This document shows positions 16,397 through 40,851 of a stretch of 64,000 nucleotides of DNA, one piece after another; position 1 is the first letter of the stretch, and every line of letters starts with the position of its first letter. The translations under genes and the position numbers were made by a program. The notes below the pieces were generated by a model. That model was given only the letters and a program-made list of their open reading frames with translations. It was not told where the DNA came from and made no database searches. The DNA is from Onthophagus taurus (Eukaryota > Arthropoda > Insecta > Coleoptera > Scarabaeidae). The DNA lies in contig NC_091967.1 in assembly GCF_036711975.1 (NCBI RefSeq), forward strand, positions 4,650,001 to 4,714,000, read 5' to 3'.

Positions 16397-19300
16397 TTAT
16401 AGAGACTGTGTTAGAGAAAAAGATGCATTTAAAGAAACTGCAACACCACCAGTTTTTCCAGCATACGTAGCTTGAAAACGAAGTCCATACTCAAGAGATT
16501 TAGCCTGTATAAGTTCATAACTTGCAGGAAAATGCGTTACTAAATAATCCCAAGATTCCTTCTTTAAAACTAAAATTTCCACAGTCGTAATTGCCTTATA
16601 CGAATGTTGATAAGGTATTTTTTGCAATCCCTGATTTTCCCCAAACGACATGTTTGCACTTAAAAAGTAACATTGGATTTCTTCATCACCGGATACCATG
16701 TAAGCAGCAACTTCTCCTTTATGAATGAAGTAAATTGCACTATCAACATCACCGCTTTCGACAATATAATTTCCCGGTAAATAGATGCATCGTTTCAAAT
16801 GGATAACTAATTGCCGAAGGAAATCTATGTGGGTGTTTTCAAACAAATAGTGAGATTCGATATGTTGCATATAAAGCGATTTCATGATATCTTGTTTTAA
16901 GTACGAAGGGGCGTCGTATAAAGCTTTAGGCACCCATTCTCCTCTTTGCATATTCCACAATTGTAGGAGATATTCCCACACTAATTTAAAAATTGGTGGG
17001 GATAAATCACGACCCTAATAAAGAAAGTGTATCAAGATAAGTTTGTAAAAAATGAAATTAAAAACCTTTAGGTACTGTTTGAGAATATCAATTTCGTGTT
17101 GATACTTCATCATGATGCTTCGTTCTATCATAATTAATGTGGCAAAACCGCTTATGATGGTTGCAATGATGTATTGAATTAAATATGATACTATTAAAAT
17201 AATTATTAATTGATTGGTGTTGTGTGGGCAAACTAATCTTAACCCGGTGGAAGAAAACATGCTTATAACTAAGGCGTAAGTTACGATTATGGCTGTTCTA
17301 ATCGATTTTGTATCGATAAAGTAAGTTGGACGTCCGACTATGTTATAAACGTATCGGCAAACTCCATCGTCACAACCAAATATTAACCTGCAATAAAATA
17401 TATAATGAATCAATAAAAAAATAAGAAAAAAATTTTAATTACCAAACATTTGCAGTTAATTGAATATAAAATAGTGTCTTGTACAATAAATAAGTCCAAC
17501 GTAGATGTTTACTAACAGTTAATTTTGCGTTACACTGGTTGTAATAGTCTACTAAATAATAATATCTTATTATTCTATTTATGCCAAATAGTTTCGAACC
17601 GCTTGTCATAAATAATGATCCAATTTGTTCGAATGGAAAACAAATCAACAAGTCGAAGGTAAAATATGATTTTAAATACTTAATGGCGATATTCTTCCCG
17701 ATTTTTTCTAAAACCCCCGAATAAGGATCTTGATAATACATACTGAACCCAATAAGCAGATTAATTGCAAATATAACATCGGAAAGAGAAAATAACAGCA
17801 TTAGCACAAGGGGTGTTGGTGTTTTTATATTAATACACAAATTTAATAACGAAGCTGTGCTGGTAATAAAAGATATATGAACGCAAACTATGTATTTCCA
17901 ATATTTATATTTCATTCCCGTGACTGGCAGTATTCTATTAAATCTTTCCAAGTATTTGTGGTACCTCAACAAATGACCTTTAATGCTTCTTAAATATTTT
18001 TTGTGAAATATTTCTGGTGGAACCGTGCACATAAGTGAGATGTTGTATTCTTGTCTAGTTGATAAAATAACGTTAAGAATTTCTTCTGCAGATTCATTCT
18101 TCCAATACTGCAACAATCTATGAAACTCTTTACTCTTAATAGCTAAAAGAGTTATATTTGTTATTGCTTTAGCTGATATCATTTGTCTTTCGCCATTAGT
18201 TGCAGAAAAACAACCAAATACACCCCCTTTTTCCAACAAACACACTGGGCAACTTGCAACGGAAATTTCAACCAACCCGGTATATACAACGTATATATAA
18301 GCTTGAACATCGTTGCATCGAATTACATCAGCCCCTGCTTTATAATGTACTTCTTGTACTCGTTGTGCAACCGCCAATAAAAACGGTTCGGAAGAATTTA
18401 ACATTAATCTCGTCACTCTTAACGTCGATTCATATAAGAAACATATAAATTGAGATCTTAGAAACGGATTAAACTTTGAGCAGATTTTTGCAATGTTTGA
18501 TCCTTGAGTTAGTTTCCAAACCATTTCGTTATGCGCTACAGTTTCTTTTATTAAATGATCGCGAAGTCGGACATCTTTTGCAAATTTTAAAAATTGTTTC
18601 ATACGAGCTTGATAATTTGCTAAATTAATTCCACCTCCAGTCTAAAACAAATCATTCAAATCAAATTTATAAGTTTTAACCTTACAATAAACACGCGTGG
18701 ACTTTCAGTCCTAGAATTTAGAAACATTCGGGATGTGAGGGACAGTTCTAGGACTAGTATTAGTTCTAGTGATAACTCTAGTTTTAGTTGTTATTCAGCG
18801 TTAGGTTGTTGCCTAACGTTGCATTAAAAGGAATGTTGACCACTATTTGAGTAATACAATTAGTCCTGAACAACACCAAACTACAGTGGTAAAAGTTTAA
18901 ACTGCTAATGGCTTAATATATGTAGCAGTAACGTACATGCCACTGAGATATAATCTCAAAGGAGAAATTCTACTACATCTTGACAACAAATTTATACTTG
19001 GAGGAGATTTTAATGCAAAACATATGTCTTGGGTTCTCGCTTGACAAATACAAAAAGAAGAGAACTGAACCATGCAATAGAAAAATATATCGCTTGACTT
19101 CGTAAACATAGAAGAAGAGTTAGGGCTGGACTCAGATCACTTAAAGTAATTATTACTCTAAATAACAAAGAACATTTTACATTAGATAGTAAAATTCATC
19201 TTAATGCTCTTATGAAAACAAGCGAAGACATTGACAATGAAGTCGAAAAGTTCTTAAAAGATATACAAAACGCAGCCTGGGCCTCAACACCAATTTTGAC

Positions 19301-22300
19301 ACCAAAACCTACATCTAATATTTATCCTAAATTTATTAGAGACAAAATTGCAGAAAAACGGAAAGCAAGAAAGAAATGGCAAACCAATAGAATTTCTAGT
19401 GATAAAACTAAATTAAATAAAATAACAGCCGAATTAAGAGCATTAACAGATAGCCACAAACAAAATAATATCCAAAATTACTTAAAAGATCTTACTGACG
19501 ATGCCAGTACTAATTATTCTCTGTGGAAGACAACAAGAAAGCTTAAAGTTCCAAAAACACATACACCTAATTCGAAATAATAATGGAAATTGGGCTAAGG
19601 CAATCAAGAAACAGTGCTAAACATGCTAAATAGTGTCCCTAGCGTAATTCAAAGTGATCAGCAGAGTAATATACCATGTGTAAGAATGAAAGAACTGTAT
19701 TATGAAATACAAAAACTAATTATTGGATAAACATTGAAACATCTACCAAAACGGGCGATTACAAAACTATTACACATAATTAATGCTGCTTTTAAACAGA
19801 AATACTTCCCAAGCGTATGGAAAGTTGCTGAAATAATAATGATACCAAAACCTGGTAAACCTCCCTCTGATGTAACATCATATAGGCCAATATCATTATT
19901 ACCCTTACTATCAAAACTGTTTGAAGAATTACTATTAAAAAGACTAAAACCTGTCATAGAAGAAAAAGCCGTAATTCCAACACATCAATTTGGGTTTCGG
20001 AATAAACATGCATCAATAGACCAAGTGCATATAATAACGAATACTATCGAAATAGCAATGGAAGAAAATAAAGATTGCTCCGCCGTATTTCTGGATGTTG
20101 CACAAGCTTTCGACAAAGTCTGGTTAGGTGGTTTAAATTACAAACTAGACCAAATATTACCATCATCTATTAAAATCGTATCTTTCTGATCGATACTTTA
20201 AACACTTATTCACCACTACATGAAATACGAGCCGGAGTTCCTCAAGGAATTGTGCTTGGCCCAACACTGTACTTACTCTACACATTCGACCTCTTCTACT
20301 CAGGTACCAGAAACTCAGAAACACAGCGATCTTGGCTGTTGCAGAAAATGAAATAGTTGCAGCAAATAACTTTAAATTCAATAGAAAACTTGACCAAACG
20401 ATGGCTAATAAAACTAAATACAAATAAATCGGCATATATAAACTTTACTTATAATAAAGTAAGCTATGTGCCAGTACACATAAATGGCAATGCAATCCGT
20501 ATGACGCTGGATGCCAAACTCAAATGGAAAGCTCACGTCAAAAAAAAAAGTGAGGAACTTGATATCAAATTTAGACACCTGTATTGGCTTATTGGCAGAA
20601 AATTAACGCTATCACTAAGAAACAAGTTGCTAATAAAGAAGCAAGTATTAAAACCAAAATGGACATACGGAATCCAACTGTGGGGTTGACAAGATAAATG
20701 CAAGTCTGATTCAAAGATTCCAGAACAAAGTACTAAGGTGCATACTGAAGCACCCTAGTATTTAAGAAACACCGACCTCCATCGCGACTTGAAAGCAGCA
20801 TCGGTGTCATCAGAAATTGCATCATTCGCATCTAAACAGGTAAAGCAGATTGGAAAAAGCTGCAAAACATTATCTAGTTTAATTTGGTGTTAAAAATAAG
20901 TAACTAATTACTATGTATTTACTAGGTGTTATACAATTGTGCTATGCATAACTTAGAAAAAAAATTGAAAATATTGAACTAAAAGTAGAACTAACACTAG
21001 AACTAGAAACATTCGGGTTTAACATGTCACTGTGTAAGCACGTGTAGAGTATGTCCCAAATTCGTTGTCCTCGTAGGCTATCTCTGAAACTAAAAGAGAT
21101 AGAAAAAATGTTGCTTGCTTATCATGATCTCGTTTTTCAACAAATTGCTAATGCCGAAAACTCCAAACACTTATCGTCTTTTGTTTTTATCCTATCGGAA
21201 AAAACTGAAAAAGTTGAGTTAGGTTAATTTTGTTTACAAATGTTAATCAACTCCGACAAGAGTATTAAATATTGGGTAATGTTATGATAGGTCAGTTTTG
21301 TTTTGAACCCCAATTATAGCGTGAAGAAACCGTAATTAAAGCGTGAAGGAATGTTGTATGTATGTATGTATGTTACGGGGAGTGCGTATACTATACGCGG
21401 CACCTAGGCCCCAACGGGCCCCTTGTACATCCTCCTCTAAGAGGTCTGAGATGATAAACGCGAGCTTAACTCGATTTCTGGCTGATTCCGCTTCCTGACC
21501 GACCCCCCTCACCGGGCGTGATACGGCACAGGCCCAGTGCGGGTTCGCCCCTGTCAGGTGCCGCTCAATGATGCCACTCACTCGCTGGCCCCTCCGTACC
21601 AAGGTGGAGCAAAGCTGCTCATCAACCCTTGGCCCGGGTACGCTCTCACGAGGTGTGGCTTCAAGAACGCTAACGCGCATTCAGCCATGTGTTCAAACCC
21701 CTTACACACATGGGTGATAACGACAACCAGAGGTGTACGACTGGTTGCCGGGACCGACGGCTTAACGTCCCCTCCGAAGGACGGGTGGGCGGCTTGGTGA
21801 ATATGTTTAAACCGGGGCTCGAACCCGGAACGTCTGCGTGTCAACCCGAGAGTTTAACCGCTGAGCCACCGCCCAGCCTTGAAGGAATGTTAAGACCGGT
21901 AGTTTTCTTTTGACACCCCATTAAAGCGTGAAGGAATGTTAAGACAGGTAGTTTTCTTTTGAAACGCCAATTATAGCGTGAAGGAAGGTCGGTTTTCTTT
22001 TGTACCCCAATTATAGCGTGAAGAAACCGTAATTAAAGCGTGAAGAAATGTTAAGACCGGTAGTTTTCTTTTGACACCCCATTAAACCGTGAAGAAATGT
22101 TAAGACCGGTAGTTTTCTTTTGACACCCCATTAAAGCGTGAAGGAATGTTAAGACAGGTAGTTTTCTTTTGAAACGCCAATTATAGCGTGAAGGAATGTT
22201 AAGACCGGTAGTTTTCTTTTGACACCCCATTAAAGCGTGAAGAAATGTTAAGACCGGTAGCTTTCTTTTGACACCCCATTAAAGCGTGAAGAAATGTTAA

Positions 22301-25300
22301 GACAGGTAGTTTTCTTTTGAAACTCCAATTATAGCGTGAAGAAATGTCGGTTTTCTTTTGTACCCCAATTATAGCGTGAAGAAACCGTAATTAAAGCGTG
22401 AAGAAATGTTAAGACCGGTAGTTTTCTTTTGACACCCCATTAAAGCGTGAAGAAATGTTAAGACCGGTAGTTTTCTTTTGACACCCCATTAAAGCGTGAA
22501 GGATTGTTAAGGCAGGTAGTTTTCTTTTGAAACTCGAATTATAGCGTGAAGAAACTCCAATTATAGCGTGAAGGAATGTCGGTTTTCTTTTGAACCCCTA
22601 TAATACCATGACGGACTGTCGGTTTACTATTGTACCCCAATTATAGCGTGAAGAAACCGTAATTAAAGCGTGAAGAAATGTTAAGACCGGTAGTTTTCTT
22701 TTGAAACTCCAATTATAGCGTGAAGGAATGTCGGTTTTCTTTTGAACCCCAATTATAGCGTGAAGGAATGTCGATTTTCTTTTGAACCCTTATTATAGCG
22801 TGAAGAAACCGCAATTATAGCGTGAAGAAATGTTAGGATAGGTCAGTTTTGTTTTGAAATTCCAATTATAGCGTGAAGGAACGTCGGTTTTCTTTTGAAC
22901 CCCTATAATACCGTGACGGACTGTCGGTTTTCTTTTGTACCCCAATTATAGCGTGAAGAAACCGCAATTATAGCGTGAAGGAATGTTAGGATAGGTCAGT
23001 TTTGTTTTGAAACTCCAATTATAGCGTGAAGGAAAGTCGGTTTTCTTTTGAACCCCAATTAAAGCGTGAAGACACTACAATTAAAGCGTGAAGGAATGTT
23101 AGAATAGGTCAGTTTTGTTTTCACCTGTCAATCACCGTGGAAAAAAATATTGGGTAAGGTTAGTTTTGTTTACGGCTTCCCCATACAACGTTTTAATTAT
23201 AATATTCCATCTTTGGCAATAAGTGAGATATTCGCGTTTGTCGTTTTCGCAAATTTTTCACTTTTTGACGATGGCTGTTCGAAGTTTTTGGCATCAGCAA
23301 TTTCTTGAAAAGCGAAATTTCTTTATATCTTCATTTTTTTAGTTTCGAAGATAGCCTACGTGGACAACGAATTTGGGACACCCTGTACTGGAAGGTAAAG
23401 TATACTTACGGTACAACTTGTGAATCCGCTTATAACGATCCATCTTACCATAGAAAGTATCCACATCAAAATAATAAAAGTTGTTAACTCATTTCCACTT
23501 CCAATTCCGAAAATACCAGTTAAAGTTCCTGCGTAAATACATACTACGTAATATAAAGTTTGAATAAATACGGTGTTTGTTGAAAGTATTTCTGGGAGTG
23601 AAGAAGTAGTAATCCAAGTTCTTCCACTACAGTTAATATAAAATTCGGTTTCGGTAACATCAACAAACGAACACGTAAGAATCATCAAAATATTAGTTAT
23701 TGCTAATAAAAATCCAATAAGAAACACCGTATATTTCGCTTTGATTAGTAAAGATCCCCACCACCAAGTAACCAAGCTTTCTAAGTAAGTCATCGACTTA
23801 TAAAACCGATATATTTGTAGAGATCTCAAACAAATTCTCAACAGGGCTTTAGTTTGCATGATATTTCCAGATCCAAACACATAAGCTGATCTTAATAAAA
23901 ACTGTGGTAAAGTTTGGATGATATCTATAGGGAACGAACATCCAATATAATGCTTTGCGGTATAAAGTGGGTGTGTTATCAAGATTCCATCATTATTATA
24001 GTATTGACAATGCAACCGAACATAAACATCTACAGCTGCCACGAAGCAAAAACTTCCCACCAAACCACTCACCACGGCCAATTTCGTCGAAAGCAAATTC
24101 GCCGTTAACAAACCCAAAGTTATGTCAACTAAGATTGTTGTTATTCTAAATGCTTCCCAAGTAATAAAAAATTTTCCTTTGGGGTCAATTGTGCGACGGA
24201 GAAGAACGTAACGTAACCATGACCAATGTTCTAAAATTAATTAATAAATTGTAATGGTAAAATTGATTTAATTTTGAATGTGCTCAATTTTCTTAAGACA
24301 GTAAAATGTAAGTGGCGATGGTGGTGTAATGGTCAGCATAGTTGCCTTCCAAGCAGTTGATCCGGGTTCGATTCCCGGCCATCGCACTTTTTTTTATATA
24401 CAGGCTGTCCCACCTAAGTTGCCTCGGTCCATAGCCAAAAAATGTTTCAAATAAAAGTTGAATCGAATCATATTGTACACATTTTAAAATTAGTTTCAGT
24501 AATGGTGGACTTCCGCTTCTACCGGAAATGGATATCAACTTTGTTATTTTAAATGGAACAACCTGTATAATATTGCAATTTTGGATTCTAAATGGTATCG
24601 TTTTTTAATTATGATGATTTTTGAAAAAAAATTACATTTGCAGCGTCTTATAAATTAAGTAATATTGCCGAAACTGTGAAAGCTAGAAAGATTTGGTTTT
24701 TTGTTTTGGATTAACAATAAAAGAGCACACGTTTGCTAATAAAAAATTATGAATTTATATTATAGAGTGTTATATACGTAGTTAAGAAGGGATCTGTAAT
24801 TTTCGAACTTTTTAATCATGGATAACTAAATTTTTTTAAATGGAATAATATACCAGTTTTTGCATAACTGGATGTAAAATTTAATTTCCTTTCAGTTTTA
24901 TACAGGTGTCATGGTGTCTATCTTCAAAGGTTTTGGAGATATTTCCGATTTTTCAGTTTTTAACGATAGATACTTATTTCGCAGCGCCGGCCACCTTCCC
25001 CTCGCATTTTATCAGACTTGGGACTAGTAGAAATGTAATGGCATGCTTAAAAAATGGCCAACAAAACACAAATAAAAAACAAAACTTTTTTTTAGTGTCG
25101 TCAAAGAAATTGAATTTACAGTTTCCTGTAAATTACGATACTATAACTAAAAATTATTCTACTAAAAATTTATATAAAATTTACTTTATTTTTTAATATG
25201 TAACATTCTAACATGTTAAACTTAGGATTTTTAATTTGACACTTCAGAAAATTTTTGATTACAAACAAATGTTGCTCCTAGATTTACAAAGTACCGCGGT

Positions 25301-28300
25301 TTGACGACATTTTGGCTCGAATGTCAAGCGGGAAATTTAAAACTACAAACCAAAACATAACGCCAAATTTCTTTTCTTTCTTTCTCGTGGTACTCTGAAG
25401 AGTCGAAAGTCCTTTTTACGGCCATTTTTGCAACTCCAAAGGCAACAAGACTGCAATATTTTTGTAAATAAGTGGTGAGATGCAGTGACAAGCTGTCAAA
25501 CCGCCATTTTGGCTCGAAAACGGGCTTCATGAACCGCGGTACTTTGTAAATCTAGGGACTTTAAAAAAATATATATATAAGCGCCATCTATCAATAATTT
25601 ATTAAGTTATTTAATAATAATATTAAATATTAATAAAAAATGTAAAATAATGAAATCTATTCCAACTTTTGTGTAAAACAAATATAAATTAAATAGTTCA
25701 ACAAATGTATTTGTTTCAAATATCAGAAATATGTTTTTTTTAATTTTTAGTTATAATTTACAGGAAACTGTAAATTTAATTTCTTTGACAACACTAAAAA
25801 AAAGTTTATTTTTGCAAGTTTTTACTTTGCATAAGATATCGCTATGCTGCATATTTCTATTGAACTAAAATTAGAACTAAGTTTCGGAAACTTTCTAATT
25901 CTAGGTCTAGTGTTAGTTGTAGTTTTACACTATTATTAGAACTAACACAAGACCTAGAACTAGAATCATTCGGGTTTAGCCGTCTTGAGAGACGTGCGGC
26001 TAAACCCGAATGTTTCTAGTTCTTGATCTAGCGTTAGTTCTAGTTTTACACTAGAACTAACACTAGATTAAAGACCTAAAACTAGAATTATTATAACTAC
26101 CCTATGTGAAGGAAGGAAAATTTTTACTCTTCGTAAAATTTAAGAAGGGTACATAAATTTATTTAAATGGAACACCCCTGTATATTTTATCATATTATGA
26201 ATACAAATAAATTTGTTTATACAACAGTATATGTTACTATTTCGCAGCGTTCATAGTTTTTGAGATATTCAATTGTTCTTGCAAAATATGCCCATTACAG
26301 GTATTTTTAAAAACGATGTAAAAACGACATTTTTTCCAATTTTGCCTTGAAACTATGTCAGACAATAGTCAAAGCCAGTAGGTAGACGATAGTATTCACA
26401 GATATTAGATACACTATACAGATTGTTTATAAAGCTTAGTTACTTTTGATGTTTTTCAAATGGTTTTTTCTTAAGTTTTTTAAATGGAACACCTGTATAT
26501 TGTGTGCTAGTTGAATTACTCATCAAGTTCTCTTCTTTAATAGTTTCTTTAAAATGTCATTAATGTACAGTAATACGAGATTATATAGGTCTATTTCTTA
26601 TTGTTTTAGAATAAAGCTAAAATAAACTTTTTTTTAGTGTCGTCAAAAAAATTAAATTTACAGTTTCCTGTAAATTACGATGCTATAACTAAAAATTATT
26701 CTACTAGAAATGTATACAAAATTTACTTTATTTTCTAATATGTAACATTCTAACATGTTAAACTTTTCGTAATTCATCTTAAAAAACAGAATTTTTAATT
26801 TGACACTTCAGAAAATTTTTGAATACAAATATTGCTGTTTATTTGAATTAAAAAAATATATATGAGCGCCATCTATCAATAATTTATTAAATCGTTTAAT
26901 AATAATATTAAATATTAATAAAAAATGTGAAATAATGCAATCTATTCCAACTTTTGTGTAAAACAAATATAAATTAAATACTTCAACAAATGTATTTGTT
27001 TCAAATATTAGAAATATGTTTTTTTTTTAATTTTTAGTTATAATTTACAGGAAACTGTAAATTTAATTTCTTTGACAACACTAAAAAAAAGTTTATTTTT
27101 GAAAGTTTTTACTTTGCATAAGATGTCGCTATGCTGCATATTTTTGTTGAACTAAAACTAGAACTAGCACAAGACCTAAAACAAGAATTATTATAACTCC
27201 CCTACGTGAAGGAAAGAAAATTTTCTTTGATGAGACATGGCTCAATGAAGGTCTAAGTTGATTACGAAAAGTTATTGTACCTCCAGAATATGTAAGCTAT
27301 CTCGACTTAAATTAATTTGTAGTTTAAAATAACAAAAAAATATAACCTACTCATTTCAAGAAAAGCTTTAGTATACTCATCAATGATAAGCAATTTCCTT
27401 TTATAAACAGTATACGAAAAGGAATCAACTCCTCCTAAAGCTGGTATAACTGAAATCATCGGTGGCAATCTACATCCTTTTTTATACAAAGTATTTTGAA
27501 ATTTTTCAATATGTTCAGTTAGCGACATTTGTAAAGGTTCGTTTGTTAAGGGGTGACTCTTAATAATATCTTGAAAAGTTTCATAGGGCAACTCCAGAAT
27601 TTCAACGGCAGTGATTGTTTGGATCGTTACAAACGATTTAAGGCGATGTAATAATTCCAACGGTGCTAGCATATCTCCCCTTTTTAAGATAACAACACTT
27701 TTACGTTCTTTATCGCCGGGAAGATCTGAAGTCATTGAGCATTTACCACGTACAATTACGTACACGGTCATTGTTAATATCCCAGCGTTCATTAAATGCG
27801 TTCCGGGGGGTAAAACAGAAATTTTCATATGCGCCGCACAAAGCCTGTAATGTTAAGGTTGGATTAAAACGTTACAATAATTAGACTTGGTTTAATCTCA
27901 CTTTACAACTTGTGGCTCAAACGATTGAAATAAAGGCACTAATTTGAGAGTATTCATAATTCTTTCGGTGTATGTATCTGCTTTAAGTTTTTCTGATAAA
28001 CGAAGTATCCCGTGAGGGCCATACAAGTCGGAACCTTCGTTTAGTCGCCAATTAAAATTTAGAATCTTCATTAATCTTTTACGGAGATTCATGTCGATGC
28101 TTCGTTGCTTCATGATATGATCGACCATTTGGATTTCGTCTTGATGAGCGTAACCTTTTCGGACACTTAACACAACGCTGGCTGTTATATCAGCGATGCT
28201 TGTTGTGAATAAGAAATAAGCGAAGTATATCATGATTGTTCGATATATCACATCGGTTAAAAGGTAAGATATAACATCGGTGACTCCTAAAGATAAAAAG

Positions 28301-30634
28301 TTGTTAATAAAAGTGGTTGGGTTGGGTTGTTGTTTTCTTACCGACTCCTAAATATACAGAGGAAATATGATATATAGCGATGCTAAAACGTTGTTCGGAG
28401 GGTATTCTAAATTGGGAAAACCAACTATTCATTATACAAAGATTTTTGAAACACGCAATAGCGTAATATCCTGTAGAAAATAAATAAATCGTTATTAAAT
28501 GAAGTAAAACGTATTTAATAATTTTAAGAAAAATGTTTCTTCGGAAAGGGCTTTTTAATTTCTCATCGATGAGCACGAATAGTTTATAAATTTTAATAAC
28601 TCTTGGTAAAGTAGACAATAACACCAAATCCTTTAGCCCAACATATTTAACTAACAGTGGATATGGAAAGCTGGCCACCACATCGATGAGAAACGTAAAT
28701 TGGACGATCCGATGAAGAAAAATTTCGCCACATTTCGAAATAATCTGCGATTGAAGATTAATGGCGGTCGTTAATTGGAGGTAAATGTCGAAATAATTCG
28801 TCATATCGAGAATGCTTAAATAAACCATGCTTTGAGGCGACACCTCAACATCAAAAAACGCCACTTTCGGAATTAAAATAAACTGCACGCAAATACAAAT
28901 TAAAACAATCCAATCGCAGAAATGACGAAAACTAGATTGAGGCTCCATTATAAGTGGACATTGCGATGTTAAACAAATCGCTTGGATCTTCAATTCAACT
29001 TCTTCACTTAACACCATAAAATCCAAATAAGCCGAGTAAAACGTTTTATCTAATTGTTGCCAAAGACTATCTTGAATCTCCTCTTTTTTATTGATATGCA
29101 AAGCGTGTACAGCTCTCCATTGATGTTTAAATCGTTTCATTGAGACATCATTATCTTCTCTAATTCTTAAATATCTAGTTTTAGAATACAACTTTTTAGC
29201 GCTATCAGTTCTCGATAAAACAAGTTCGTGTATCATTTGCGCCGTCAAACGATGTTGTGCTAAAATCTTTACTAAAGCCGTAGTTTTTAATGTGTGAAAT
29301 TCACAAAACGTGGCACATTTAACACTTGCTGTTCCAATGATTGGGCGAAAAATGTTAAATTCGCCCAATAAAGTCCCAGCGGATAAAGATAAATACGGCG
29401 ATTCGTTATCTTCCGAGGAAAGAACTTGGACAACCCCTGAAACGATGTAAAACATTTTTGATTTTATCTCCCCGGCTTTATAAATATAATCCCCCGGTAA
29501 CATAAATTCACTTCGCATCACCATTGCAATACTCTTTTTAAACGACATATCCGTTATTGTTAACAGATGAGAATGTCTTAAAGCATCCCAAAATATATCT
29601 AAAGCGACAGCTCTTTGAACGGTTACGGGTAACCAAAAAAACGCCAAAGGCATCTTTTTTTCACCCTTGCGTTTTTCCCAAAAAAACTCGTAATAATCAA
29701 TCACTTTTCGTTGAATTTTTTGGTCCACGTTCCAATCTTTAAGAAGATCCATCGTTTTTTTAATGCGTGTTGTAAAATTAAATTGATAAATATGAAGATG
29801 GGAGAAAAGGGCTGTTAATTCGCCCAAAAAAATCATTAAATGCATCGAAAATCCAAGCAGCATCGAAAATATAATAAAAATCCATTCCAATTCTCTATCA
29901 CTTAACACTCTCCCCATCCAATTATGCGCCACAATACTTGAGGTTATATGAAAACTAGTTATCCACCAATGCAACGAATTATTAACGTTAATTGTATCGG
30001 TTGGTACAGCATGGGTCCAATTTCTAAAACCGCAACGAAAACACGCAAACAAATACCAAACGCAAGATAACACGACGCTAATCACCAACACTCTTGTAAG
30101 ATGTTGCATAATTACAACAGCTACGTGATTTATACCAACAGAATTTGTTTTCCTTTTAAAAAAAAGGTACACACTTATAATTCTTAACACCACTTTGATT
30201 CTATAAAAATCAACTGGTTTATATACATTCCAAGTATGTAAATGTAAAAGATAGTGAATTTCATAGTACGGCAATACAGAGATAATATTTAATAATAGGT
30301 GAAGTGGATGAATAGGTTCTTCGGTTCTGCTTCTTCGTTGTTTTGGCATATACCTAAAATTTGTAATTATTAATTTAAATTGAATGAAAAAGGTGTTGAA
30401 TTAAAATAATTACCTATGTATTAAAAGACCGATGATGTTAACAAGAAAGAAAAATTCGAAAGCATAGTAAATGTAAGACCAAGTTTCCGTACTATATTGA
30501 AAGAAAAAATGGATTATGTTTATAATAACATTCAATAACGTTGTTAAAGCAATGAAATAAGCCCATGGTTCGTTAAAGGGAAGAAAAATTAATTTCGAAA
30601 ATACATTTTGTGTCGCTAATTTATCTTCAACCAT
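16397..30634 (-). CDS. Single-chain four-repeat CNG/HCN-like channel (CNGK-type), 8 exons
   Basis: Exons on the minus strand: 30414-30634, 28342-30353, 27902-28286, 27351-27844, 23410-24230, 17443-18641, 17066-17387 and 16397-17014. All junctions are GT-AG, phases match throughout, and the sum is 6,072 nt, so 2,023 residues. Four units follow each other, each with S1-S6-like hydrophobic segments, a C-linker and a cyclic-nucleotide-binding-like domain at about 357-440, 880-967, 1406-1488 and 1895-1975. This is the architecture of CNGK/tetraKCNG, the pseudotetrameric cGMP-gated K+ channel of sea urchin sperm. The filter positions read IVAHNWMGR (~214-222), LGVGVTD (~742-748), TGIFGIG (~1275-1281) and SSTGLRL (~1755-1761), not TxGYGD. 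The first exon may have further 5' noncoding exons. If short-gene predictors split it, the pieces should be rejoined. Confidence 0.85.
18700..18800. repeat. CTAG-rich hairpin motif, diverged copy
   Basis: Carries AGAAACATTCGGG and a run of TTCTAG units (GTTCTAGGACTAGTATTAG), members of the motif family described at 13550. Located in channel intron 5. Confidence 0.5.
18880..20900 (+). mobile_element. Jockey-like LINE remnant in channel intron 5
   Basis: Plus-strand pieces in order: an endonuclease end at about 18900-19045 (VAVTYMPL, then GGDFNAKHMSW), a linker frame at 19212-19580 with KARKKWQTNR, the reverse transcriptase fingers/palm at 19734-20189 (IPKPGKPPSDVTSYRPISLL, then FGFRNKHASIDQVHII and VFLDVAQAFDKVW), and a thumb/C-terminal frame at 20357-20689 (KWTYGIQLWG). 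The catalytic F/Y-A-D-D box between the last two frames is lost in a frameshifted stretch, and stops interrupt every joint. It lies opposite to the host gene. No poly(A) tail or target duplication was resolved. Confidence 0.75.
21311..23115. repeat. Minisatellite of ~30-50-bp AGCGTGAAGGAATGT units
   Basis: Variants of AATTATAGCGTGAAGGAATG, then AGACCGGTAGTTTTC, then TTTTGACACCCCATTAA repeat dozens of times in the same orientation, with alternating short and long versions. The array is interrupted once, by the SINE at 21356-21879. Confidence 0.85.
21356..21879 (-). mobile_element. tRNA-derived SINE with 12-bp target-site duplication
   Basis: A GC-rich 524-bp insert, read on the minus strand. 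Near its 5' end it shows an RNA polymerase III box A (TGGCTCAGCGG, 21868-21858) and box B (GGTTCGAGCCC, 21825-21815) at tRNA spacing. At its 3' end it has a CATA simple tail (21356-21372). It is flanked by TGAAGGAATGTT at 21344-21355 and 21880-21891. That 12-mer is also part of the host minisatellite, so the duplication is consistent with insertion into the repeat. Open frames here (21336-21913) are not genes. Confidence 0.75.
24315..24386 (+). tRNA. tRNA-Gly (anticodon TCC)
   Basis: A 72-nt sequence folds as a complete cloverleaf. The acceptor stem GCGATGG pairs with CCATCGC and is followed by discriminator A. The anticodon loop is CTTCCAA with anticodon TCC, and the T arm is CCGGGTTCGATTCCCGG. 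Internal box A (TGGTGTAATGG) and box B (GGTTCGATTCC) are intact, and a T-run terminator follows at 24388. It lies in channel intron 4, antisense to the host gene. No intron; CCA is not encoded, as in eukaryotes. Confidence 0.95.
24397..24573. repeat. Short TIR element with TATACAGG ends
   Basis: TATACAGGCTGTCCCA near 24398 faces an imperfect reverse complement, TGGAACAACCTGTATA, near 24556-24571. About 175 bp with no coding capacity. It starts immediately after the tRNA terminator. Confidence 0.5.
25080..25815. mobile_element. MITE family copy A (TTTACAGTTTCCTGTAAA ends)
   Basis: The left end has TTTTTTAGTGTCGTCAAAGA, then a subterminal palindrome TTTACAG-TTTC-CTGTAAA. The right end (25745-25815) is the inverted equivalent. 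The interior carries GCGCCATCTATCAATAA and AT-rich sequence shared with copies B-D. A second element is inserted inside it (25273-25557). Confidence 0.75.
25273..25557. mobile_element. MITE nested in copy A (CTAGATTTACAAAGTACCGC ends)
   Basis: Near-perfect 24-bp terminal inverted repeats starting CTAGATTTACAAAGTACCGC. A second inner pair shares CATTTTGGCTCGAA. On the minus strand a 68-codon frame (25324-25530) contains an ATG in good context; it is most likely fortuitous or captured. Confidence 0.7.
25866..26085. repeat. CTAG-rich perfect-type hairpin array
   Basis: The clearest member of the CTAGAACTAGAAA family. Arms of about 46 bp (ending CATTCGGGTTTAGCCG and CGGCTAAACCCGAATG) surround a spacer, TCTTGAGAGACGTG, that itself has the GTCT...AGAC dyad. 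Extra TTCTAG units sit on both flanks. Confidence 0.7.
26126..27140. repeat. Duplicated block, copy 1, containing MITE copy B
   Basis: Begins at TAAAATTTAAGAAGGGTACA and carries two ATGGAACA(C)CCTGTATAT ends, followed by a full MITE of the TTTACAGTTTCCTGTAAA family (about 26582-27105). The block recurs at 30766-31620 upstream of the channel start codon, with small indels. Confidence 0.75.
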
Positions 30635-32648: not shown

Positions 32649-35600
32649 TCAACGTCCCAACGAATTGTTGCCGCGTACAATTTCTTTTTTCTTTCGTTTC
32701 TTAAAATCCGGCGACAAAGTACTTTCATCACTTAAACTTGCACTTCTTTGGAATTTCGAGTTCCATAGTTCACTGACGGCCTTAAAGGGACTCGTACTTT
32801 TTAAACTTTTCGAAGGACTCGTATTTTCGCTTGATAATTTTAATCTTTTCCTACAGTTTATATCACCGTTATTTTCTTTGGTAATGGTAATTTTAGCATT
32901 TTTTTCGTAACGTTTCAGTTCGGTTTCGACTAGATAAACATTTCGGGTTGATAGTTGTGGTGATGATGACGATAAAGTTTGTCGGAGACTTGCAATGATG
33001 GGTTGTTCCTTAATTTTTGATAATTCATCTTTTATTGGTTCTTTTTTAATTTCTGTTATGGGTAATGTATCGTCGAGGAAAACATCGTCATCTTCATCGT
33101 AGTTGATATCGTTTAAATAAGACCTATTTTTAGAATTAGAACTATTCGTACTCGTGGAATGTTGCTTTAATTTAAAAGGACTAGAAGGGTGGGTTTGAAT
33201 TCCGGAACTCTCGTTGGATATATTTGATGGATCTTCTGAGATTTTCCAAATATCTCTGTTTTTATCAACGGTTGCGGCGGCTAAAGTAACGGAATTTGAA
33301 ACTATGGATAATAATTTTGGCGGTGTTGGTAGACTCATTGATTTTGTGGTTCGATTAAAATGTATCGGTGATTCTATGTATCTTTTATTTTGGAATCTAT
33401 TTACTCTGGAATCTTGAAATGAATACATTCTGCAATGGTTGAAATTGTTGTTGTAAGTATACGATGCTCTTATAGTTGGATTAGAAGAGGCGCTTCTTCC
33501 CAAAATACTAAAGAATAAATTCTTTAAAGCTTCCCGAAAATCTTTTAAATGATATGCGTATAAAATTGGATTTCCTGCTGAGTTCGCGTGCGACAAGATA
33601 ATACACAACAACATAAAAGTTTCGTTTATTTCACAATCACTACAAAACGCGATGACACAATTCACCGTGTAAAGCGGGATCCAACAAATCATGAAGAATA
33701 ATACTATGATGGAAAGATTTTGAGTTGCTTTTACTTCTCGTTTTTGAGCGGCCCCCAACATTCTGAGCATTGTCCCACCGCTAGTTCTTCCGTTTGTTGT
33801 TGTGCCGTGCGTTGGACTTATTGTAACAATTTGGCGAAGCTAAAATTTTTTAAAATTATTTAATTATAATCACAAATAATATTTATAATTACCTGTTTCA
33901 ATACTACCCTATAAATGTGAGCATAAAACGCAGCCAATAATAAAGCTGGTGTTATTATGGTCCCAAAATACAGAAAAACCAAGTAATTCATATCGACGAC
34001 ACGAAGAAAGTAGCATTTTTGGTTGTATTGGGCATCGTTATTGTACCAACCCATTAATGGCAAAAAACCAATCACTGATCCAGCAAACCAACAAATACCA
34101 ATTATCACTGAAATAGAAAAGAAATAAAATAATAATTAATCTTGTATATGTTTTTCAAAAACGAATTAGTATTTATTATTATAAACATGGTATTTTTGAA
34201 ATAACAGACTTATTAATTCACAAATGTCTTGAATCAAGTTTTCTCGAATCACTTTTTTCAAATCATAATGTCATCAAAATTCATAATACATCAAATTTAA
34301 TTTTTTTAACTTTTGATTTATCCTCAAAATTTTCAAGTGCTTAATAACAATGAGAGAAATCGTTCATATTCAAATTGGTCAAGGTGGAAACAACATTGGT
34401 TCAAAAGTATTAAAATTTGATCGTCAAAATTAATTTAAATGAATAAATTTCTTTGATATAGTTTTGGGAAGTAATCTGCGACGAACATGGAATCACCCCA
34501 CAAGGTTTTTATCGCGGCGATAGTGATTTGCAACTTGAACGAATTAATGTTTTCTTCAACGAAGCAAGTGGACATAAATTCGTTCCGAGAGCGATTTTGA
34601 TTGATTTAGAACCGGGTACGATGGATACTGTGCGTTCATCGGCATTTGGGCAACTTTTTCGCCCGGATAATTTTATTTTTGGAAGAGCTGGAGCGGGGAA
34701 TAATTTTGCAAAGGGACATTACACGGAAGGAGCTGAGCTTTGTGATTCTGCTTTAGATATTATTCGAAAAGAAGCTGAAGGATGCGATTGTTTGCAAGGG
34801 TTTCAGGTTGTTCATTCATTGGGGGGTGGAACCGGAGCTGGGTTAGGAACGTTATTACTTTCTAAAATTAGGGAAGAATATCCCGATAGGATTATAAGCA
34901 CTTTTTCGGTGTTGCCAAGTCCGAAAGTATCAGATGTAGTGGTTGAGCCTTATAACGCTGTTATGTCTATGCATTTTCTCGTCGAAAATTCTGATGAAAC
35001 TTATATGATTGATAACGAAGCTTTGTATGATATATGTTATAGGACATTAAAACTGTCAGCGCCATCATACGCGGATTTAAATCATCTTATTTCTTGTGTA
35101 ATGGCTGGGGTAACGACTTGTATAAGATTCCCAGGCCAATTAAACGCTGATTTAAGGAAAATCATGGTTAATATGGTCCCGTTTCCACGTCTTCATTTCT
35201 TCGTGCCAGGGTTTGCGCCTTTAACATCGAGAGGGGGCGCTCAATATGCGGCAGTAACAGTTCCCGAATTAGTTAGGCAACTCTTCGATGCGAAAAATAT
35301 AATGTGCGCATGCGATCCAAGAAGAGGGCGTTATTTAACTGTAGCTTGCGTTTTCCGAGGTAGAATGTCAACAAAAGAGGTTGACGAACAAATGATGAAC
35401 ATACAAGACAAAAATAGCACATATTTCGTTGAGTGGATCCCAAACAATATCAAATCAGCTATTTGCGATATCCCACCGAGAGGATTAAAATTATGCGGAA
35501 CTTTTATTGGAAACACAACAGCCGTGCAAGAATTATTTAAAAGGATGTGCGAAGCTTTTTCAGCTATGTTTAGGAGGAAGGCTTTTTTACATTGGTACAC

Positions 35601-38600
35601 CGGGGAAGGAATGGAAGAAAGCGAATTTTTAGAAGCTGAAGCTAATTTAAACGATCTTATTTCAGAGTATCAACAATATCAGGAAGCTCAAGCTGATGGT
35701 GATGATGACTACTAATAATAAATCGTTTAAAACTGATATTTTTAGAATTCTTTTAATTTTACGATTTACATAAAATTTAGTCTAAAATTAAAAACAGGAA
35801 AATGTGATAAATTTTATTGTCAATTTATGTTCTATCTAATTTTATCACATCTTAACATGACGTGAAATTCGAACCAAACCCGTTGGTTATTAAATTTAAC
35901 GGAGTTTTTCCGTCTGTAAAACATGGTTTATCTGTTTTCGACACCGCTTGCAATTGATTTAACTCATCAGCAGATAACAAGTCGAATAAATGGAATTGTT
36001 CGCATTGGATGAATCCAATACAAAGTTTGAATTAAAAAAAAATTAAGAATATTATTGGCAATCAATTTCTGTTTACATTTCTGAAATTCAATTACCCAGA
36101 TAATAACAGAATATAATGGAAATATTTCAATTCTGTTGAAGTAAACAACAAAAAAAAAATTCACATAAAAGTGTAGTTAATTAGTTATTTATTTTAAGAG
36201 CGTTTCTGTGTATGATTTAAGATGAAAGCGTTGTATGGAAGTTCAAATATGAGTACTGCGAGAATTTCTTGTTTTGAGAGAGGAACTTCGCTGCGAAACT
36301 TTCACATCTAAACAAATGAGTGATACATCTTGTAGTAATTTAAGTTGCAAAAAAAAAATTAATAATTATATATGATAAACGATTTTATGATTAAATTTGA
36401 TACTAAGCACTATCATAATCCTTAATTGACGAAGATTGATTCGATTATCCTATAAGAAAATCCTATAAAGTGCATTCGCTCTAGTTGTTAATTTATGCTG
36501 AAACGTAGAACTTGACGACCCAACCGGGCAAACATCGATATATCATTGCGAAAGACATCCATTAACGTTGACGTTAGTTTTAAAGCTGCACCTTCTTTAT
36601 AAAGTTCGGTGAACTTATTCTAAAATATTTAGCAACAACTAACTACAAAGAAAATATTATTCTCGTTAAAAAAGAGATTATGTTTCACCCTCAACTAATT
36701 AAACAATAATTTAAGTTTAATAAGGCGTTAACTTAAAATAATGTTCAAAAATGTTTCAAGTTACAAGTTAAACAAACAATGATTCCTGAGAGTCGGAATT
36801 TTTAAAAATGAAACAGAGGATGTTCAATCATCAAGAAATTGCTAGCTATTAGCTTGAAAGTTTGAAGGATAAATGTGAATTTGAATCCTTGTCCCGGTTA
36901 CATGAAGGATTAAATCTTTTTAATGTTTTTGAATTAATATTTGTAAATAGATACTTTAAAATTAATTATTATTGGGTTAACGATTTCCACATCATATTAC
37001 CCTTCAGGTTTTATAGGGTTCAAACAGGTTATTTACGGCCCTTATTAGCCAACTTTTCTTTTCATTGAGAATTGAAATTTCCAGAAAAACTTTTCAATTT
37101 TAAGTTACGTTTGTTTATTCACTGAATTAACCCGGTTTACGATCGTTTCATGCGAAACTTTTTAATCCGTCCACTTCAAATATTTACAGCAGTAAAGTAC
37201 GCGCGATTAATATTGATTTATTTACTTATTTTATAATAAATTTAAAGTGATTACTACTGTTTTCGTTGAATTTCAAGAAATAAATTCATTTAATTTTTGA
37301 AATTACAGATAAACTTTGTGAGAAATCTAAAGAACCACGCTGTATGTAAACTTTTGTCTTTCACTGTATATACGCTCAAAAAAATAGGTGTAGGGTAGAA
37401 ATAAGAATTATTAATCGATATTTTAAAAACATCGAAGTGTATCATAACAACATCAGTATTTTTAAATCGTTTATTAAAAAAGTTAATGTGATAATTAAAA
37501 TTTATTTGCAAATTTTTATCGCCCTCTAGTAGAAGTTGTATTAACTAGAATCTAGTTAATAAAATGTGGCAGGAATCTGTAATTGTGTAATAAATCCAAA
37601 TAATTCACTGTTTAGCGTTTTGTTTACCTGTTTTTTATGGTATTGCTATTGCGTATTACTCATCTTCTATAAGACTAGCTTTATCCAAAAGTAGAGGCTG
37701 TATTTTAATAAATTATCTTCTAAAATCGTATAATGTAATTTGTTTAAACGTGAACCAGAAAATCTCTATATCACCACTACACATTGTGGTCCTTCTTGAG
37801 ACAACTAAAACCGTTTAACTGCCAATTAAAAAAGAGATTAAAATGTTAATCGTATTTAAGTAAGTTCTTTATAAATTTAATTATTAAATGATTTTAGTAC
37901 ATATCTCGCGTTCTAACCTTAAAGTATTGTTTCCGATGGCATTATAATCGAAATCAAAGTATTTATAGACGTACACACCAACATTAACACCACATATTTG
38001 CACATTATAACTCGAATAACCTTATTAAATGTCAAACTGACACATCATTTGATTTTGACAGATATTTGCAATGAAATTCGTACAAAGTCCGTTTTACATA
38101 CAACAAACTAAAAGTGGTTATTTTCCATTTAGAATTTTAGGTTTATTTATTTATTTAATAAATAAAAATGAACAAATCTTGTTTATTTATTTTATTTTTA
38201 TATTTAGCTGGTTGTTTTTTTTAAGTATTTGATTTATTTTAAATTGAAAGAAATTTTCGTTTGTATATTGTTCTTGTTTTGAACTGTCATTTAAGTGACG
38301 TATGATTTAGAATAATTGAGGTTGACAAGTTATGTTTTTTATTTGTTGTAAAATATAATAATGTGAACAAAACCAAACCCTCCGCCACCATATCCCGGGC
38401 CAAACCCCATTCAACCAGGTATTTTTCTTTTTGTTTAATATGTTCAACGCACATTATTTAATATTATTCGTAACCACATTGATATACAAGTATAGGTTAG
38501 GATGCAATAAAGGAATAGATTTCATCATAAAATAGTAAGCAAATTCAATTATTATTAACGACAAAATGAAACTTCCACTCATAAATAATTTACTTACATA

Positions 38601-40174
38601 TGTTCGTGATCTAGATAATATCAAAATACGTAACGCAACATTAATTATTATCTTCCATAAAAAGCCATGAACTGTGGTGTTCTTTGTCGAGACAATTTGA
38701 TAATTAATAGTTAATTTAATAGCCCATTTGTCGTGAATGGATATCGTTTAATTGCATCTTTTATAATATAAACCCACTCACAATGGAATACAATAGATAC
38801 TATGCTAACGTTTTAACGCAGTTCTATTCATTCATGCGTGCAATATTTACTAGTTGTTTCATTCATCATGATTAATAGGTTTCAATTAAGTAATTTAGAC
38901 GCGAATCAATACTTACGTAATTGTTTATTTAATTTAAATTTTGAGTTACAATTTTAAAAGCTCCCAGAAAATGGATTCTATTCGTTATTATGTCAGTGCA
39001 TATATGTATAAAGCTCCGCACCCATAATTTACATAAATCCATGTAAATTAGCAGCATTATAATGAACCCCAACTAAATCTATTAACATTATTTGATATAG
39101 ATTTAGAGTAACAAAAAATCCCACTACGTGGCAACGAAAGAAAAAGCCCTCATAAAAAAGGAAAAATAAAGCTGTCAATGTAACGAGAAAATAAGGGCGT
39201 ACATAAATACTTGACGATCTTCATTCGATCCCGATGAAATGGTTTCGAAAAGCTTTTATGTTTTTACGAAGGCGTGGATATAAAGAGATTTCATTTATCT
39301 ATATTATCCCAAAATAAAGATAAAAAATAATGATGTTAACATTTTTTATCCTTTCGTTTCCTGTTTTCTAATAACTTAATCAATTCTTTTGTAGATATTT
39401 TATGATTCCCTAAAGACAACAAAGTCTCTAGAATTCTCCGGAATAATTTGCATTCGCGCCACTATTCAATCTAGTTAATTAATGAACACGGATGTGTACA
39501 CCGTTCAATTTGCAATTTTATGTTACCTTATTTGAAACTAATTTAGAAATTTTTGTTGTTTTATACATCTGGTGTTAAGCAATATTGCGAGAATCCGTTC
39601 GAAATGGAGAAGCGCAACTCACCATTTAATTAAGAAATATACCAAGTTGGTTTTAGAGCGACATTAACCGGACTTTATTTGTTGAAAATCTCTTTTCTAG
39701 GAAAGTAATTTTAAAGCAACTAAATTTAGTTGAGCAAGTTAATATTATAATTTGTAAGGAATTCTTACCTAATGCAGTTTTTGTTCTTACGTTCCTTGAA
39801 TAACCCATTGGATGTAAAATAGCCCAATATCTATCGACGGATACAGCGACGAGACAAAATATCGAAATTGTACAAAGCACGACGAGTAAGGAAACGGTGA
39901 ATAAGCAAGCGTAAAGATTCGCTGGTAATCCAACAGAAGCCAAGATGGCAAATGGGATTCCTAAAAGGCCGACTAAAAAATCGGCTGCTGCCAATGAAAC
40001 GATGTAATAATTAGTCCTCCTTCTTAATTTTCGCTCCCTTCTAAAAACCAATATGACCATAGCGTTACCGACAACCGCAAAAACAGCGACGAGAACCTCG
40101 CAGATCATATAGTACAAATTCAACTTTCCGTTATCTGTTTCATGTACTTTTGTTGTGTTTATGGTATCAACCAT
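32649..40174 (-). CDS. AdoR: Adenosine receptor, class A GPCR, 3 coding exons
   Basis: Exons 39769-40174, 33893-34107 and 32649-33839 join in phase (406, 215 and 1,191 nt) into 603 residues. Features: N-glycosylation sequon NTT at 6-8; TM1 with GNAMV (Asn37); TM2 with LAAADFLVG; the DRY motif as DRYWAI at 114-119; TM6 with CWIP at 259-262; TM7 with [12 protein letters not shown] at 290-301. SHAN next to NPxxY is characteristic of adenosine receptors. Residues from about 320 on form a long Ser/Thr/Asn-rich tail, as in insect AdoR proteins. An acceptor at 40277-40278 begins a 5' UTR exon that also carries a short upstream ORF. The first coding intron (5.66 kb) contains the beta-tubulin gene on the other strand. 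The receptor senses extracellular adenosine at the plasma membrane and signals through G proteins. Confidence 0.93.
34350..35715 (+). CDS. Divergent beta-tubulin nested in AdoR intron, 2 exons
   Basis: Exons 34350-34406 and 34462-35715 give 436 residues. The MREI start, LGGGTGAG nucleotide loop, [15 protein letters not shown] and SEYQQYQEA blocks are beta-tubulin. Differences from the normally near-invariant sequence: the first loop reads GQGGNN, so Cys12 is Gly and Gln15 is Asn; several internal changes (for example [16 protein letters not shown]). The acidic tail is cut to QADGDDDY, about nine residues shorter than usual. The protein ends in tyrosine, an alpha-tubulin trait. AATAAA follows at 35717. 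The frame is intact, so a functional, tissue-restricted (perhaps testis) isoform is likely, though a young retained duplicate is possible. Expression is not shown by the sequence. Confidence 0.93.
35852..36031 (-). other. Candidate 3' exon of an unidentified minus-strand gene
   Basis: Fifty-nine sense codons and a stop, opened by a stop just upstream. The peptide looks protein-like ([18 protein letters not shown], then [19 protein letters not shown]). AATAAA on the minus strand sits 34 nt after the stop (35818-35813), so this could be the end of a real transcript converging on the tubulin gene. No clear splice acceptor or upstream exon was found. It might be a fragment of a gene nested in AdoR intron 1, or an alternative short last exon for AdoR. 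Family not recognised. Confidence 0.3.
36200..39650. other. AdoR intron 1, remaining part, no gene recognised
   Basis: AT-rich sequence. Frames at 36862-37068 and 37290-37511 have no domain or coding bias that I can support. No member of the repeat families described elsewhere in the window was noticed here. Confidence 0.45.
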
Positions 40175-40851
40175 TTTTAGGGGAAATCTTTCGATTTCTC
40201 TAAATCGCTTTATTAATTTAATTCATCCTAGTTCTTGTGATTTTATTATGATTTTTATTCTTTCTTGAACAGCCATCTGAAATTAAAAAAGAATAATAAA
40301 AATTCAAAAACCCAAAACTGAAATATCTATTTATTAATATAACAATATATTATCGCATTTTATCGACTTTATTTGCTACCCAATATTAGTATTAACATTG
40401 ACACTGTGGCGGTTAATAACCTGATGCCAGGAATTCTAATCGTGCGAATTGCACGCGTTCCCAAATCCCCATCAATCAACACGAATCGTTCAAATTTCGA
40501 TAGAATTTCCATCAGACAATAACTTGCGTATCTCATTTGATGAAGCAAATATTATGAATTGACCGAGGTGGCGAGATTTTGTGCGTGTTGTAAACATGAC
40601 CCACATTTTATAAATTTGGTTCATGCCAAAACAGTTGTTTCCCGATTATTCAACGTTTTCATAATCTTAATAACATAATAATCACCGGATTTTATCGATA
40701 AGTAATAATCATGGTTGTATTATCCATGGTTGAGGTTAATATTTTTTTTGTACTTAAATGTATTATGTTTCAAAAAATATATTACAGGTGGTATGTATAA
40801 AATATTTTTTTACAGTGTTTTCAAATAAATATTTAGGTATCGATTTATTCA

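Follow-up and report, generated by a model that had tools for sequence, protein, structure and literature searches.

The window analysed here, a 64-kb stretch of DNA (bases 4,650,001–4,714,000 of contig C2, in a searched genome of 290.8 Mb and 33 contigs), contains on its minus strand one gene encoding four fused channel units. Each unit comprises the membrane segments S1–S6, a C-linker and a cyclic-nucleotide-binding domain (CNBD). Positions given without a contig name are those of the window. The gene is composed of the following exons:

30414..30634, minus strand: exon 1, start codon and S1–S2 of unit 1; start common to paralogue Q; outside the reach of the profile alignment
28342..30353, minus strand: exon 2, unit 1 from S2–S3 to the CNBD end and unit 2 from S1 into the P loop; covered by the profile alignment from 29785
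27902..28286, minus strand: exon 3, end of the unit 2 P loop, S6 and C-linker; acceptor 28283 in the profile alignment
27351..27844, minus strand: exon 4, unit 2 CNBD and linker to unit 3; in the profile alignment
23410..24230, minus strand: exon 5, S1–S6 of unit 3; in the profile alignment
17443..18641, minus strand: exon 6, unit 3 C-linker and CNBD, unit 4 S1–S5; profile alignment (donor 17485) and comparison with Q introns
17066..17387, minus strand: exon 7, unit 4 P loop, S6 and start of the C-linker; profile alignment and comparison with Q introns
16397..17014, minus strand: exon 8, unit 4 C-linker, CNBD and stop; profile alignment (to 16508) and comparison with Q introns

Spliced in phase, the eight exons (30634 to 16397) give 6,072 nucleotides and 2,023 amino acids, as a preliminary description of this DNA had proposed; the frame has no internal stop, and all seven introns are bounded by GT–AG. 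To check the joints, a profile built from seven paralogues and excluding the window gene (Q being represented by its first frame only) was aligned to the window DNA with a purpose-written spliced aligner. The alignment starts within exon 2 and ends within exon 8, and four of the six introns covered agree with the gene model at both ends. Among them are the joints 27351/24230 and 23410/18641 across the long introns 4 and 5 (3.1 and 4.8 kb), which had been claimed earlier and are recovered here independently of the window gene. The other two introns differ at one end (acceptor 28283 versus 28286; donor 17485 versus 17443). Intron 1 and exon 1 lie beyond the alignment, and exon 1 is supported by the start common to Q (FLPFN...W), the nearest paralogue, which is 36% identical to the window protein. 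The model of Q has three introns, and introns 5–7 of the window gene coincide with them in column and phase; since the window gene supplied one of the seven rows of the profile used to model Q, this match is supporting and not fully independent.

Intron 5 harbours reverse-transcriptase-like frames, recognised by eye (19098–20689; no Pfam model matched the first frame), and a minisatellite with units mostly of 40–49 bp (21880–23121). Elsewhere in the window, most of a beta-tubulin-like gene is found in one long plus-strand frame (34462–35715), situated between two GPCR exon frames of the minus strand (32649–33839 and 39653–40222). It is probably nested in an intron, if both GPCR frames belong to one receptor.

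The cNMP-binding domain (PF00027) exceeds the Pfam cut-off in each of the four units of the window protein, and a genome search with the same model returns the same four places:

29252..29497, minus strand: PF00027 of unit 1, residues 360–441 (Pfam scan and genome search)
27553..27813, minus strand: PF00027 of unit 2, residues 884–970 (Pfam scan and genome search)
18108..18350, minus strand: PF00027 of unit 3, residues 1409–1489 (Pfam scan and genome search)
16541..16783, minus strand: PF00027 of unit 4, residues 1896–1976 (Pfam scan and genome search)

The ion-transport half of the unit-by-unit model search suggested in the preliminary description gave the opposite outcome: PF00520 (Ion_trans) reaches E 1 in none of the four units, and the cNMP-binding domain is the only one returned by the Pfam scan at this threshold. 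The membrane part has diverged too far to be recognised by PF00520, and the assignment of S1–S6 is therefore not based on Pfam. In phmmer searches of the two halves of the window protein against solved structures, SthK, CNGA1, KCNH and HCN were matched. For unit 1 (residues 16–410 of the first half) and unit 4 (residues 517–913 of the second half), the CNGA1 match begins at S1 and continues into the CNBD. No such S1-to-CNBD match was seen for units 2 and 3 among the best phmmer stretches listed, and their S1–S6 were assigned through paralogue alignment and hydropathy only. With these assignments, the earlier claim of a four-fold repeat of six membrane segments, C-linker and CNBD in one polypeptide holds. 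The S4 segments carry 2 to 7 positive residues.

An AlphaFold2 model of unit 1, built from a 4-row alignment of window fragments only, reached pLDDT 52 and pTM 0.31. Foldseek placed SthK and CNG chains first for this poor model; since the TM-scores relative to query length were about 0.3 and the rmsd values ranged from 12 to 29, the result was set aside as evidence. Cysteines 1224 and 1238, which flank the unit 3 turret and are invariant in all nine genes read (see below), could form a disulphide.

The preliminary description presented a single gene. Its four fused units stand, and the gene proves to be one member of a family of about twenty. Eighteen loci (A–R, A being the window gene) have matches touching all four units, and three more (S, T and U) are partial; these counts, derived from whole-genome searches with PF00027, proteins B and A and two parts of gene C, are lower bounds. 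Two of the 18 loci are weaker: in O the only match to unit 4 comes from Pfam, and in F unit 1 is represented by its CNBD only. The family is spread over contigs C1, C2, C3, C5, C6, C7, C10, C11 and C16. Nine genes (A, B, C, D, E, I, J, L and Q), with mutual identity of 18–39%, were read.

Paralogue B carries all four units in one unbroken frame of 2,024 codons and aligns with residues 50 to 1988 of the window protein (E 6.8e-97, one-sequence search). The open frames of D, E, I, J and L (1,933, 2,044, 1,903, 1,908 and 1,917 codons) each match B through units 1 to 4, so that six of the nine genes read have no intron across the units. Of the proteins scanned, B, D and E contain four Pfam cNMP stretches and J three. 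The frames of D, I, J and L begin after the first membrane segment, so that these genes must have one or more further exons upstream. An open frame of 2,020 codons has a probability of about 10^-70 by chance at this base composition; together with the six paralogues having 1,903–2,044-codon frames across the units, this means that the frame of the window gene is not a chance product.

These paralogues bear directly on the explanation by which neighbouring single-unit genes had been misjoined across long introns. The length of introns 4 and 5 and the repetitive content of intron 5 would be in line with such an error. Against this, B, D, E, I, J and L are unbroken through units 1–4, the long joints are recovered from paralogues, and the units form clades by position (see below). 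On this sequence comparison, misjoining could be regarded as already refuted unless the window gene alone had split, and its probability is negligible. A decaying pseudogene is hardly more credible. Pore and ligand motifs are lost and retroelement-like frames lie in an intron, as could be expected of decay; on the other hand, 2,023 codons without a stop and GT–AG at all introns are retained, and the cytosolic ring is conserved. Moreover, 714 residues are identical between A and Q, of which 380 have the same codon and 334 different codons, which argues that the amino acids, and not the DNA, have been held by selection.

Gene C (C3:28463546–28484591; loci L022, L023 and L055) is an intron-rich four-unit paralogue. 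A number of joints in its spliced draft are uncertain, chiefly in the stretch from unit 3 to unit 4, and no introns common to this draft and the window gene were found when looked for. Locus T (C2:1638605–1656668; one piece read, L064) is partial, matches gene C and could be a second filter-bearing member.

Other channel-like loci were noticed in the genome. L029, L031, L033, L034, L045 and L053 represent separate single-unit CNBD channels, HCN-like by eye and present in several copies; mostly they are long open frames, some with degenerate-looking pores, and constitute another expansion. Ion_trans matches in long open frames occur at several places (L013, L014 and L015), which are TRPA-like by eye, with ankyrin-like repeats in at least L013. 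In the red palm weevil genome, PF00520 and PF00027 are listed among the significantly expanded or contracted families, the direction not being given in the excerpt of the source (PMC7314810).

The pore of the window gene lacks GYG/GFG in all four units. GVG is present in unit 2 and GIG in unit 3, while units 1 and 4 have no G-x-G of the pattern searched. The places of three P loops were computed by hand from the exon map:

29909..29962, minus strand: degenerate P loop of unit 1 (no G-x-G)
23491..23541, minus strand: P loop of unit 3 (GIG, no GYG/GFG)
17225..17287, minus strand: degenerate P loop of unit 4 (no G-x-G)

GYG/GFG is absent from 27 of the 28 units of B, D, E, I, J, L and Q, the exception being KGFGK in unit 1 of E; unit 2 of B has GTG. 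For the eight genes other than C, the absence thus extends to 31 of 32 units. Gene C, alone among the nine, has filter-like motifs in all four units (CGFGD, IGIGD, IGFGD and TGTGS in units 1–4, respectively), and the unit 3 pore of locus T reads AIGMGYADM. Compared with solved structures, unit 1 of gene C is nearest to K+ channels of the KAT3/AKT1 type (KAT3, E 1.2e-20), ahead of CNG. By these motifs, gene C is a better candidate than the window gene for CNGK in this genome. Given the G-x-G left in units 2 and 3, some cation conduction by the window protein may persist.

CNG and HCN channels are tetramers of one-unit chains. They have the same domain order (S1–S6, C-linker, CNBD) as the window gene, which differs from them in carrying four units per chain. 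Plant-type AKT/KAT K+ channels and bacterial SthK are likewise single-unit chains, with a K+ filter; KAT3 is the best solved-structure relative of gene C unit 1, and SthK is that of the window protein halves. The filters of CNG and HCN channels, TIGE and CIGYG according to an excerpt of PMC7576140, are not seen in the window gene.

The ligand sites have also changed. The cyclic-nucleotide cassette requires a Glu and an Arg. By motif, none of the 36 units of the nine genes has both; positions were counted ungapped from the cassette Gly, and a different loop length could shift the Arg. All nine genes keep the cassette acid in unit 1 (L has Asp), and A and Q keep it in unit 4 as well; the cassette Arg is seen in B and D (unit 3) and in L (unit 4). 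A reading in which the phosphate-binding Arg was kept in unit 3 of all eight filter-less genes was dropped, the invariant Arg (1463) being located one place before. Loss of a motif is not proof of loss of function.

Conservation was compared among the eight genes without C for the P loop, S6, C-linker and CNBD. In all four units the P loops are less conserved than the C-linker and the CNBD: mean BLOSUM values for units 1–4 are -0.43, -0.19, 0.19 and -0.01 in the P loops versus 1.92, 0.62, 1.38 and 1.94 in the CNBDs. Among these segments the CNBDs of units 4 and 1 come first, followed by the unit 4 C-linker and the unit 3 CNBD; the unit 2 CNBD is poorly kept. S6 varies to about the same extent as the P loops, in unit 3 even more, and the low conservation of the pore may partly be a trend of the membrane part. 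Of the parts compared, it is the cytosolic ring that selection has kept best, along with the reading frame.

The history of the units was addressed by maximum-likelihood trees. When all 36 units of the nine genes are placed in one tree, those of a given position fall into a single clade (support 100/98, 100/100, 100/99 and 100/99), and these clades recur in a tree without J and L (28 units) and in a tree on the C-linker and CNBD alone (36 units). The fusion consequently predates the split of the nine genes, which share a common four-unit ancestor. This argues against the units being unrelated neighbours, a possibility raised in the preliminary description, and the single-frame paralogues point the same way.

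The pairing of units 1+3 | 2+4 is the best in all three outgroup-free trees, with support of 92/86 (36 units), 76/69 (without J and L) and 98/93 (C-linker and CNBD). The AU test rejects neither alternative pairing in any of them (p 0.12 and 0.158; 0.251 and 0.305 without J and L; 0.153 and 0.147 for C-linker and CNBD). In a published tree, CNGK repeats are paired I+III and II+IV, according to the excerpt consulted (PMC7576140). The same pairing is favoured for the present units, and with it descent from a CNGK-like four-unit channel. No CNGK was named among the PDB matches listed for comparison with solved structures.

A separate fusion in this lineage, starting from a CNG- or HCN-like single-unit channel and not from CNGK, would also yield four units in one chain. 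When six single-unit outgroups are added, the 36 four-unit rows are united at only 84/71, and units 1, 2 and 4 group without unit 3 (92/84), leaving units 1 and 3 unpaired; a separate origin could accommodate this, as it could the AU results. The S4 segments of the family, which by eye we take to resemble those of CNG, were counted on the same side. The consistent pairing in the trees without an outgroup and the affinity of gene C unit 1 to KAT3/AKT1-type channels speak for CNGK-type descent instead, and a separate fusion appears unlikely.

CNGK (tetraKCNG) of sea urchin, ascidian, fish, sea anemone, sponge and choanoflagellate is likewise one chain of four 6TM–C-linker–CNBD units, according to the parts consulted of PMC4749565 and PMC8835908; in the first of these sources it is described mainly from marine invertebrates, fish and a choanoflagellate. 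Among the matches listed from the open-licence PubMed Central literature (titles and abstract starts), no insect four-unit CNBD channel was found. The window gene could then be an ordinary CNGK orthologue, that is, a K+-selective sperm channel opened by cyclic nucleotide or pH, and the shared plan, the favoured unit pairing and the filter-like motifs of paralogue C are what such an orthologue would lead one to expect. What distinguishes the window gene from CNGK is the lack of GYG/GFG in all units, the absence by motif of a Glu and Arg pair from every CNBD, and P loops that are poorly conserved among the eight genes compared. In addition, about twenty loci are present in one genome, and two thirds of the genes read (6/9) are intronless across the units. 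Zebrafish CNGK is not gated by cyclic nucleotides, so that the ligand feature is no strict criterion of the family. Orthology with conserved function is thereby weakened for the window gene, and seems improbable to a greater degree than a separate fusion; for gene C the sequence leaves it open. Of the CNGK interpretation offered in the preliminary description, the four-unit plan is retained and descent is favoured by the trees and the gene C motifs, while the window gene does not look like a working-type CNGK.

The reading that we consider probable is that the window gene encodes a 24-helix single-chain pseudotetramer, a derived member of a family of about 20 genes originating from a single K+ channel, most likely of the CNGK type, and that its pore no longer selects K+. 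The four CNBD-channel units would fold into one channel-like pseudotetramer. The family would go back to a single four-unit K+ channel, and among the nine genes read C would be the one that has changed least from it. The cytosolic ring of C-linkers and CNBDs in the window gene is better kept than the pore; the K+ filter motif and, by motif, the standard cyclic-nucleotide contacts have been lost. Because filter and ligand contacts are lost while the ring is kept, the window protein would no longer be a cGMP-gated K+ channel. It most likely serves in membrane signalling, either non-selective or without conduction, with a ring that answers another input, such as pH, a lipid or a protein partner.

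There are precedents for such changes. In zebrafish, CNGK responds to pH instead of cyclic nucleotides, as stated in the excerpt of PMC4749565; the input of a CNGK-type ring can thus change. HCNL1 and SLC9C1, both sperm proteins, are relatives with a VSD and a CNBD in which transport does not proceed through a K+ pore (PMC11700363, PMC6052114). In HCNL1, protons are conducted via the voltage sensor (PMC11700363). These two proteins are not described as four-unit chains in the excerpts of the sources and are compared here by shared domains only.

The site of action would probably be sperm or another specialised cell. Intron-poor, dispersed gene copies are often testis genes. A sperm role is suggested by analogy with CNGK alone and by the intron-poor dispersed copies of the present family. 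More tentatively, and with somewhat less confidence than doubt, the whole set could be viewed as about twenty pseudotetramers in most of which the pore is dead or changed in selectivity. Their working part would be the four-fold CNBD ring, serving non-conducting or proton/non-selective signalling, and the ancestral CNGK-type channel would still be present in the genome.

Marked filter changes in CNBD and Kv-like channels concern individual channels and not clades, with the exception of metazoan CNG, according to the excerpt of PMC7576140. Here eight genes lack GYG/GFG in 31 of their 32 units; if the pattern holds beyond the nine genes read, the family would join metazoan CNG as another exception to this rule. 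The presence of the filter-bearing gene C in the same genome would allow a direct test of what a channel ring does without a pore.
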